Below, piece after piece: positions 3,274 through 14,647 of a stretch of DNA of 23,497 bases; the first letter of the stretch is position 1, and every line of letters starts with the position of its first letter. The stretch lies in IMG/VR virus record IMGVR_UViG_3300029266_000838, positions 1 through 23,497 of that record; one strand, given 5' to 3'. Below the pieces are notes generated by a model. It saw nothing but the letters and a program-made list of their open reading frames with translations, searched no databases and was not told the DNA's origin. The DNA comes from a virus. The position numbers and the translations under genes were made by a program.

Positions 3274-3305
3274 ATACTAAATTAAAAATTAATTATATAA
3301 ATATT

Positions 3306-3575
3306 ATGAATAAAGAATTATATCTTTCAGTTATATATCAAGCGATAAGAGATGCTGTATCGAATGATGATAAGAAAGTTTATAAGGCTTATGATTGGTT
3401 TGGCTCAAAAGACTTTGATAAGTTATGTGAACTATCTGAATTAAATTCTAAGTCATTGAGACAATCTTTAGTTAATTTAAGAAGTAGTGATAACCCAAAG
3501 ACTACTGCCGATAATATGATTTCATCTATTAGGGCTTTAGTTTGGCAAAAGGAAAGTGTTGGAAAAGAGACCTAG
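3306..3575 (+). CDS. Small phage protein of unknown function (89 aa)
   Basis: The frame is open from 3258, but the sequence before 3306 encodes a low-complexity N/K/I stretch that looks untranslated, so the ATG at 3306 is preferred. No clear ribosome binding site precedes it. The protein has MNKELYLSVIYQAIRDAVSN, then KVYKAYDWFGSKDFDKLCEL and SLRQSLVNLRSS. An Y--AI-DA ... A--W--S-DF--LCEL-----K--R pattern occurs in many small phage proteins encoded near replication genes, with no known function. It is the first gene of the rightward early block, about 100 bases before the primase-helicase. Confidence 0.6.
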   Translation: MNKELYLSVIYQAIRDAVSNDDKKVYKAYDWFGSKDFDKLCELSELNSKSLRQSLVNLRSSDNPKTTADNMISSIRALVWQKESVGKET

Positions 3576-12355: not shown

Positions 12356-12410
12356 TGACTATTTCGCAGTAACTCATTCAGGCATGGGTACTAATCCCAT
12401 GCGATAGTCA
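12356..12410 (-). ncRNA. Probable type III hammerhead ribozyme E, altered core
   Basis: Minus strand. UGACUAU (12410-12404) pairs perfectly with AUAGUCA (12362-12356) as stem III. C12403 is the residue before the cut, in triplet AUC. Stem I is GCAUGGG/CCCAUGC with loop AUUAGUA. Then come CUGA-AU-GA (12381-12374), a very short stem II (G-C and U-G around UACU), and GAA (12365-12363). Order and junctions match a stem-III-open hammerhead. However, the core has one extra base compared with CUGANGA, and stem II is only two pairs. It could be an unusual active form or a decaying copy. It lies in the leader of the MoxR gene. Confidence 0.62.
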
Positions 12411-13154: not shown

Positions 13155-13219
13155 ACCTATATATGGAACTCCGGAGAGTCCCAAATTTCGCCACCTTTCA
13201 GTGTTGCTCGTCAGTAGGT
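13155..13219 (-). ncRNA. Type I hammerhead ribozyme D
   Basis: Minus strand. Stem I is ACCUA (13219-13215) with UAGGU (13159-13155). The core CUGACGA is at 13214-13208. Stem II is GC, an AA bulge, then CACU/GGUG closed by a GAAA tetraloop, ending GC. GAA is at 13189-13187. Stem III is 11 positions (13186-13176 with 13171-13161), ten paired, with loop UCCG. The triplet is AUA and the cut falls between 13160 and 13159. It differs from A-C in every stem yet keeps all invariant residues. It directly follows the stop codon of the 100-aa gene and precedes the 49-aa gene. Confidence 0.92.
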
Positions 13220-13522
13220 TTATCCTTTGTAAACTGATATTTTCCATGATGCGTAAGGTTCAGCTTCATGCCCTAGTTTTTCAAGTTCTTTCAAACCAAA
13301 AATCTTTTCTGCATTTTCCCATACCATATCTCCACCATAATCATCCCATGTTTCGTTGATGATGTCGTAACAGTAGCCACCATCAAAAAGAATCTCAACA
13401 TTTCCCTCTTCACATTCTCTGATTATTAAATCCTCCCAAATCTGCTTTGCAGTCAATATGCTCTCGTCAGCATATTTATTCACAGCCTTTGTTAAATGTT
13501 CAATTACTTTGTTTATTTTCAT
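13220..13522 (-). CDS. Phage protein of unknown function (100 aa)
   Basis: First gene of the leftward middle operon. ATGGAG precedes the ATG. It opens with a helix (MKINKVIEHLTKAVNKYADE) and continues SILTAKQIWEDLIIRECEEG, then acidic and aromatic stretches (YCYDIINETWDDYGGDMVWE) and a C-terminal KLGHEAEPYASWKISVYKG. No family recognised. Its leader (UAGGUAAUAA at 13559-13550) resembles the leader left after cleavage by hammerhead D. Confidence 0.6.
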   Translation of the reverse strand: MKINKVIEHLTKAVNKYADESILTAKQIWEDLIIRECEEGNVEILFDGGYCYDIINETWDDYGGDMVWENAEKIFGLKELEKLGHEAEPYASWKISVYKG

Positions 13523-13569
13523 AATATATTTTCTCCATTAAATTAAAATTATTACCTATATTTTATCGC

Positions 13570-13992
13570 TTTGGGATTAGCTACTCTTCACACTTACAAG
13601 TTTAGTCCCTAGAGACAAGCAAGTTACACGCCGGTTTATCACCAGCATAGCCTTAGCACACATCGATATCCTTGAGTTTTGTGTCCTGTAGGGCTTAAAC
13701 TCTCCGGAAACCATCCAAACCTTTAGTCTTGCTAAGACATTCGCATATGGACAGAGACGTTCTCAATTAAGCGACACTCTCTCAACCCAAGATAAACGCA
13801 CTAAGACATGATGTCCGGATTTTTCGTGGTGAGGATTTCTTGGTTACCTCTTTCTCGTTTAAGTCCCATGTATCGATTCAGGCTCTAGGCTTGAACCCTC
13901 GAACCATGTCATTGCGACTGGCTCTCATGGGGACTATGAGCATCCCACTAGGGTGTATTTGAAAAGGGGGCAAAATCGCCGTCAATCCCAAA
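13570..13992. ncRNA. Candidate 423-nt structured non-coding RNA
   Basis: There is no open frame of note on either strand across about 630 bases. By hand count 190 of 420 bases (13561-13980) are G or C, about 45%, well above neighbouring DNA. TTTGGGATT (13570-13578) is exactly complementary to AATCCCAAA (13984-13992), closing the ends. Inside are GAGTTT/AAACTC (13674-13679, 13697-13702), GTCTT/AAGAC (13726-13738), and a three-way junction: AGTCCC-ATG (13862-13870) with CAT-GGGACT (13926-13935) encloses hairpins at 13877-13895 and 13904-13921. The 13877-13895 hairpin has eight pairs, two of them G-U only on the plus strand. Strand is therefore more likely plus, but one hairpin (13630-13646) favours minus. 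Class unknown. Confidence 0.6.
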
Positions 13993-14049
13993 TGACAAAT
14001 GCATCTTAGTTTATTACCCCACAAATGACAAGGATTAAATGATATATAT

Positions 14050-14075: not shown

Positions 14076-14082
14076 TAGTGTT

Positions 14083-14097
14083 GCTTACGAAGTAAGC
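14083..14097 (+). other. Short hairpin after the SOS box array
   Basis: GCTTAC-GAA-GTAAGC, a perfect 6-bp stem with a three-base loop, in the leader of the late operon. Confidence 0.5.
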
Positions 14098-14144
14098 GTA
14101 TGATTGGGTTTAGGCATATATAAACATATGTAAAATAAATTAAA

Positions 14145-14167: not shown

Positions 14168-14647
14168 ATGAGTAGTAAAGATAAAGATAAGGGTAACAAT
14201 AAGGTAACAAGTATTGATGGGTTAACACCTAAGCAAGAGAAGTTTATACAAGGGGTACTATCAGGCATGACTGCTAGTGAGTCATATCGCAATTCATATA
14301 GTACCAAGAACATGAAAGACAGTAGCATATGGAGAGAAGCATCAGTACTCATGAGCCACCCAAAGGTTTCCCAAAGGGTTAAGGCTGGATTCAAGAGGAA
14401 AGAGCAGTATGGGGTTAGTACAGCCCTCTCTCTTAGACAGTTCGTCACAGATCAATTGATTAAAGAAGCCAAGGATATTAATAACAATGAGTCAGCTAGG
14501 ATTAGGGCATTGGAAATGATTGGCAAGATATCAGAGGTAGCATTGTTTACTGATAGAGTTGAGACCACTAACAATAACAGGACAAGCGACGAGATCAAGT
14601 TAGAGTTGGAGCAAAAGATTCATGAACTGTTTGCTGGTAACAACTAG
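14168..14647 (+). CDS. terS: Terminase small subunit
   Basis: A 159-residue protein. After a polar N-terminus comes LTPKQEKFIQGVLSGMTASE, SYRNSYST, and SSIWREASVLMSHPKVSQRV. This helix-turn-helix region, with L--KQ--F----L-G ... A---AG-S---A-VLL--P-V, is characteristic of small terminase subunits that bind the packaging site. A coiled helical region follows (ISEVALFTDRVETTNNNRTS, then an acidic helix). It is the first gene of the rightward packaging block and lies downstream of the SOS array and palindrome copy 8. The large subunit is not adjacent: a LexA-like gene lies between them. Confidence 0.85.
   Translation: MSSKDKDKGNNKVTSIDGLTPKQEKFIQGVLSGMTASESYRNSYSTKNMKDSSIWREASVLMSHPKVSQRVKAGFKRKEQYGVSTALSLRQFVTDQLIKEAKDINNNESARIRALEMIGKISEVALFTDRVETTNNNRTSDEIKLELEQKIHELFAGNN

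Follow-up and report, generated by a model that had tools for sequence, protein, structure and literature searches.

A conserved pseudoknotted RNA structure without an Rfam match, located upstream of terS in phage genomes

A marine phage carries, in the space separating two oppositely oriented gene blocks, a region of approximately 425 nt that shows, across 14 homologues, a conserved and covarying structure on the minus strand, contains a pseudoknot and matches no Rfam family. We consider it fairly probable that it specifies a stand-alone phage non-coding RNA of a class outside Rfam, which would be transcribed as the first part of the minus-strand operon, released by processing and act in trans. 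To our knowledge very few large structured phage RNAs have been described, and the best known, GOLLD and ROOL, are without an assigned function. The RNA described here would represent one more class, for which the strand is defined, a promoter is predicted and covariation supports a pseudoknotted core; it is short enough for in vitro structure work.

Genome setting and homologues

The window, by which we mean the whole stretch of DNA that was analysed, is a 23.5-kb phage record (23,497 nucleotides). On the plus strand, the right half holds the genes for TerS, TerL, a portal-sized protein and a capsid protein. A minus-strand operon in the left part includes genes for a MoxR-type AAA protein and a DUF2201/VWA protein. 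Among named phages, Pelagibacter phage HTVC027P and phage 023Pt_psg01 have the nearest TerL proteins (~55%). The large RNA and the genes on either side of it are:

13572-13996, minus strand: large structured non-coding RNA (14 aligned homologues, covariation, alifold z -10.4)
13220-13522, minus strand: first gene downstream of the large RNA (100 aa, without a Pfam match)
14168-14647, plus strand: terS (Pfam Terminase_2), first gene of the divergent packaging/structural block

The predicted start of the RNA is at ~13996, ~7 nt past the -10 box of the promoter described below, and its last invariant bases are AUCCCA at 13577-13572. An earlier note on this DNA had described positions 13570-13992 as gene-free and raised in G+C, and both descriptions hold: there is no open reading frame of at least 50 aa within these limits, and G+C is 0.45-0.47 compared with ~0.30-0.35 alongside. 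The longest stop-free stretches vary between homologues and no reading frame is common to the clades; on these grounds a coding region was rejected.

Scans of IMG/VR, based on TerS and on motifs, identified 13 further distinct homologous regions in phage contigs, with identity down to ~48%. Together with the window they form three clades: clade A (the window, L004, L006), clade B (L007, L008, L010, L021, L044, L045) and clade C (L018, L020, L024, L031, L034). The large RNA lies directly upstream of terS (plus strand) in every locus read, the left-flank genes are on the minus strand wherever a left flank is present, and the MoxR gene follows a few kb beyond where the flank extends that far. The RNA and its slot beside terS are constant across the clades, but the first gene downstream of the RNA differs from one clade to another.

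Covariation supports a conserved structure

The 14 homologues were aligned with MAFFT from sequence only (alignment A1), a choice made to avoid fitting the alignment to a structure, and L026 was excluded as a near-duplicate of L024. The resulting model has 68 pairs in 12 helices. Standard pairs occupy 93.8% of its cells, compared with 76.0 +/- 0.9 after shuffling, so that the conserved pairing looked for among homologues is present. Two-sided changes are found in 174 cells (59.5 +/- 6.1 when shuffled, 12-35 when slid) and the covariation score is 0.545 (0.211 +/- 0.013 shuffled, 0.07-0.15 slid); these cells count sequences and not independent events, the three clades make the effective sample small, and the model was picked on the same alignment, points that are answered in part by the slid versions and by the separate alifold control against column shuffles (z -10.4). 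The large structured RNA proposed in the earlier note is thus supported by comparative evidence.

Folding energy is less informative. The window gives z-scores of -2.66 on the minus and -1.41 on the plus strand, and against dinucleotide shuffles nearly all other homologues have |z| <2, mostly unremarkable values on both strands, for which reason folding energy was dropped as proof of structure. The case for structure is carried by covariation, and folding energy alone is weak evidence.

The helices of the model, and the sequence elements discussed with them, are as follows:

13957-13993, minus strand: P1 hairpin (13986-13993 with 13957-13964), two-sided changes in 7/8 pairs
13978-13980 with 13969-13971, minus strand: P1b, the inner 3 bp of the P1 hairpin
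13826-13948, minus strand: P3, 4 bp (13945-13948 with 13826-13829), paired in 100% of cells, 3/4 pairs covary
13863-13934, minus strand: three-way junction, closed by P4 (13926-13934 with 13863-13870)
13916-13924 with 13901-13910, minus strand: P4a of the three-way junction
13892-13897 with 13875-13880, minus strand: P4b of the three-way junction
13831-13850, minus strand: P5, 4 bp (13847-13850 with 13831-13834), 100% of cells paired, 3/4 pairs covary
13787-13843, minus strand: P6 pseudoknot, 6 bp (P5 loop 13838-13843 with 13787-13792), 5/6 pairs covary
13804-13816, minus strand: P7 hairpin (13813-13816 with 13804-13807), 3/4 pairs covary, loop UCA invariant
13816-13825, minus strand: GAAAAAUCCG, identical in 14/14 homologues and almost wholly unpaired in the model
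13681-13777, minus strand: P8, 5 bp, closing a variable domain (13773-13777 with 13681-13685), 100% paired, 2 pairs covary
13592-13624, minus strand: P11 (13622-13624 with 13592-13595), 2 pairs covary; bears the CUCUAGG strand
13608-13889, minus strand: P12 candidate, 7 bp, CCUAGAG in the P4b loop (13883-13889) with CUCUAGG (13608-13614)

The strongest elements are the P6 pseudoknot, P3, P5, P7, P1 and the junction P4/P4a/P4b. P6 has no mismatch in the 14 sequences although its letters change repeatedly (CCAAGA/UCUUGG, CCUGAA/UUCAGG, ACUGGG/CCCAGU, ACUAGG/CCUAGU and ACAGAA/UUCUGU), and P1 reads AAAG/CUUU in L008. The three-way junction that had been placed at 13862-13935 proved to be real, on the minus strand, with two-sided changes in 18 of the 23 pairs of P4, P4a and P4b. 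An outermost helix, P2 (~13954-13957/13595-13598), was left out of the model because the clades are inconsistent.

Only three runs of at least eight bases are invariant: GCCUAGAG, UCUCUAGGG and GAAAAAUCCG. The first two include the perfect 7-bp complement of P12. Both P12 strands are invariant in the 14 homologues (assessed without L026), which makes covariation impossible, and from their complementarity alone we propose that they might form a long-range kissing interaction. In L026, otherwise near-identical to L024, the P4b loop has UUAGUUAAUAGAG in place of CCUAGAG, by sequencing error or as a natural change.

The two ends of the region had also been described as joined by a 9-bp complement. 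This complement is present in the window (TTTGGGATT / AATCCCAAA), but its conservation as a pairing is unsupported: there are no compensatory changes in the 14 homologues, the helix is broken in L008 and L044 with AUCCCA invariant throughout, and its 5' strand is taken by the local, covarying P1 hairpin. The 9-bp helix was therefore rejected as a conserved structure; it may possibly form as an alternative conformation.

The RNA is on the minus strand, behind a predicted promoter

In the earlier note two hairpins with G-U pairs favoured the plus strand and one the minus strand, and this has to be corrected. Over the whole model there are 96 G-U cells against 14 A-C cells; read from the opposite strand, the same positions would give 96 mismatches and 14 wobbles. 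These counts, together with a promoter at the same position in all clades, place the RNA on the minus strand, and a plus-strand RNA was rejected on the same two grounds. Folding energies are lower on the minus strand in 14/14 homologues, but as the z-scores are mostly unremarkable on either strand they were left out as proof of strand. The promoter elements in the window are:

14003-14031, minus strand: predicted sigma-70-type promoter TTGTCA-17-TAAGAT, at the equivalent position in three clades
14013-14024, minus strand: box TTGTGGGGTAAT in the spacer of the promoter (-35 to -10), conserved in clades A and C

Promoters of the other clades read, for example, TTGACA-17-TAATAT and TTGATA-16-TATATT, and in each clade the predicted minus-strand promoter ends ~10 bases ahead of P1. 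The total of promoter-like matches in the scans is not above chance, so that the shared position is what counts, and the match in clade A is the weakest. In clade B the TTGTGGGGTAAT box is present in the opposite orientation (TACCCCACA); in either form it might be an operator.

These results also bear on whether conservation here could lie in the DNA only, through overlapping promoters, operators or an origin, with the pairing arising by chance. The region does border a divergent promoter region with the palindromic, operator-like sequence GCTTACGAAGTAAGC upstream of terS, and folding-energy z-scores are mostly unremarkable, as such an account would have it. However, 174 compensatory cells against 12-35 in the slid versions, and G-U far in excess of A-C, are not expected from constraint on DNA, and we regard this explanation as very improbable.

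Comparison with known RNA families

The earlier note had suggested a GOLLD or ROOL RNA, or a new one. The second part of this suggestion stands and the first does not. In the window every Rfam family, GOLLD and ROOL included, stays below threshold, and under permissive settings the large RNA is still without a match (E <=10 for the window region, E <=3 for clades A, B and C); the few permissive matches all lie outside it and were judged to be chance. No model match was obtained for group I introns, RNase P RNA, tmRNA or other Rfam families, and ARAGORN was also negative for tmRNA. We call the class new since there is no Rfam match in any clade. What the RNA has in common with the large phage RNAs is a conserved complex structure with a pseudoknot and the lack of coding capacity.

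GOLLD RNAs often, but not universally, lie close to tRNA islands. ARAGORN found no tRNA in the window or in eight related loci. The absence of a tRNA island is also a difference from ROOL, as is the genomic place. Like GOLLD, of which the solved example is marine, the present RNA is a large multi-helix phage RNA with loop pairings and no assigned function, and like ROOL it is a large phage or prophage RNA, with a pseudoknot (several in ROOL) and a conserved loop pairing (PMC12286853). At ~425 nt it is shorter than both (659 nt for ROOL env-120, >800 nt for many GOLLD RNAs).

The loop pairings of GOLLD, ROOL and OLE turned out to be intermolecular (PMC12286853), and by analogy the RNA could be a homo-oligomeric scaffold or cage in which CCUAGAG and CUCUAGG pair between molecules. 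This would be a special case of the stand-alone reading. The phage origin, the pseudoknot with a kissing-type pairing and the invariant complementary 7-mers are in keeping with it; the smaller size, the lack of neighbouring tRNAs in the window and eight loci and the lack of an Rfam match argue against, and the sequence data fit intramolecular pairing equally well. We consider an oligomer of this kind rather improbable.

Probable release from the operon transcript, and the slot upstream of terS

No intrinsic terminator was found between the large RNA and the gene in three loci scanned, so the operon mRNA would also carry the RNA as its leader. A hammerhead-like motif with an inserted A separates the large RNA from the first gene in clade B (L007, L010, L021); in L007 this junction is at 3275-3352 on the minus strand. 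No hammerhead was found at this place in clade A, the window's own, or in clade C, and a descriptor scan for the core CUGANGA...GAAA with three stems found none inside the large RNA, only beside it. Two further motifs are present in the window:

13155-13219, minus strand: type-I-like hammerhead with a perfect stem I, ACCUA CUGACGA GCAACACUGAAAGGUGGC GAAA ... UAGGU
12357-12409, minus strand: type-III-like hammerhead with a core A insertion (CUGA-A-UGA), upstream of the MoxR gene

Rfam Hammerhead_3 scores the first at 18 bits, Rfam seeing type-I motifs weakly, and equivalents occur in L004 and L010; the second has equivalents, likewise upstream of MoxR, in loci of all three clades. Hammerheads in phage intergenic regions have been reported before, including one with the A6a core insertion, which had low activity (PMC3088659). 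The motifs of this lineage resemble them in their intergenic location and in the A6a insertion, but differ in that they adjoin a large RNA in which there is no hammerhead core. Downstream of the large RNA, UAGGUAAUAA (window 13554-13558, minus strand) resembles the 3' half of a type-I hammerhead without the 5' half; such a lone 3' half makes a shuffling of hammerhead cassettes possible.

In distant relatives other gene-free stretches fill the same slot upstream of terS. L054, L061, L068, L077 and L106 have a hammerhead-like motif at its far end, before the minus-strand genes. Most hammerhead-like motifs score below Rfam thresholds; L056 602-665 (minus strand) is above the gathering score, as Hammerhead_II with 42 bits. 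L062 2967-3297, L064 2659-2989 and L065 2515-2805 (approximate limits) carry a different conserved structured sequence in the slot, with an alifold z of -6.7 and the minus strand favoured. A recurring layout of promoter, large RNA, hammerhead and operon leads us to suggest, tentatively, that the slot is a dedicated large-RNA locus of the whole phage lineage, whose occupant has been replaced, or has diverged past recognition, between genera. If so, it would hold a fast-evolving class of self-released phage RNAs, serving for example in counter-defence or host takeover. Should the layout with neighbouring hammerheads be general, it could be used as a signature in searches for further RNAs of this kind and would allow the phage release route to be tested.

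These observations can be assembled into a possible sequence of events. A host-type (sigma-70) promoter would start the minus-strand operon right at the first helix of the large RNA, and the nascent RNA would fold into a pseudoknotted body, P3-P7 around the invariant GAAAAAUCCG strand, which the CCUAGAG/CUCUAGG pairing may pin to the 3' domain. A hammerhead-like ribozyme would then cut the RNA away from the downstream mRNA in clade B, and some other route would separate the two in clades A and C. Once released, it would work in trans in a structural role, by itself or together with protein.

Because clades A and C show nothing that would separate RNA and gene, the main rival is a cis-acting leader, that is, a long 5' UTR of the minus-strand operon that acts on RNA polymerase or gates translation of the first gene. 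The put RNA of phage HK022, a polymerase-modifying leader of ~70 nt that acts in cis, is likewise structured and opens the transcript of a phage operon; it is far shorter, and in one clade of the present RNA a hammerhead-like motif stands before the mRNA. In favour of a leader, the large RNA begins where transcription is predicted to start; a ribosome-binding site and gene follow ~40-55 nt on in clades A and C, and no terminator intervenes. Against a leader, the downstream gene is swapped between clades with the RNA retained, although a leader acting on polymerase would tolerate such a swap more easily than it would a hammerhead, and hammerhead-like motifs separate RNA and gene in clade B and follow other occupants of the slot. 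We judge a leader unlikely. The stand-alone reading is preferred on two grounds: exchange of the downstream gene leaves the RNA and its slot in place, and a self-cleaving motif parts the RNA from the gene in one clade and does so in other slot occupants too. The extra core A of the clade-B motif, an insertion of the low-activity type (PMC3088659), counts against it, as does the failure to find a hammerhead at this place in clades A and C.

Distribution and further sequence motifs

A covariance model of the core of the large RNA (R1) finds a single copy per record in six records of its phage family, and no copy in HTVC027P, HTVC023P, 023Pt_psg01, DSL-LC04 or MinM2. Among 80 loci and 24 records (TerL ~65-77% identical) the best match, at 14.9 bits and E 0.13, is not credible. 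With blastn, 50,697 named phage records yielded nothing notable, apart from a 44-nt chance match. One exact core pattern, which divergent copies could escape, had no match in 84,980 bacterial and archaeal genomes. As far as can be detected, the large RNA appears confined to one narrow phage group.

Two palindromic elements were also noted in the window. Ahead of terS, the palindrome GCTTACGAAGTAAGC (window 14080-14103) is followed by a TATGAT/TATAAT-like box and may be an operator-like site in the divergent promoter region; L010 has GCTGCTGTAAGCAGC in its place, a change in both arms. A near-palindromic motif, AAATATTAANNGNTTAATA, occurs at window positions 2027, 7786, 9177, 11209, 12605 and 14142, mostly in gaps preceding genes (8 matches counted, 0.06 expected), and is possibly an operator or a leader element.
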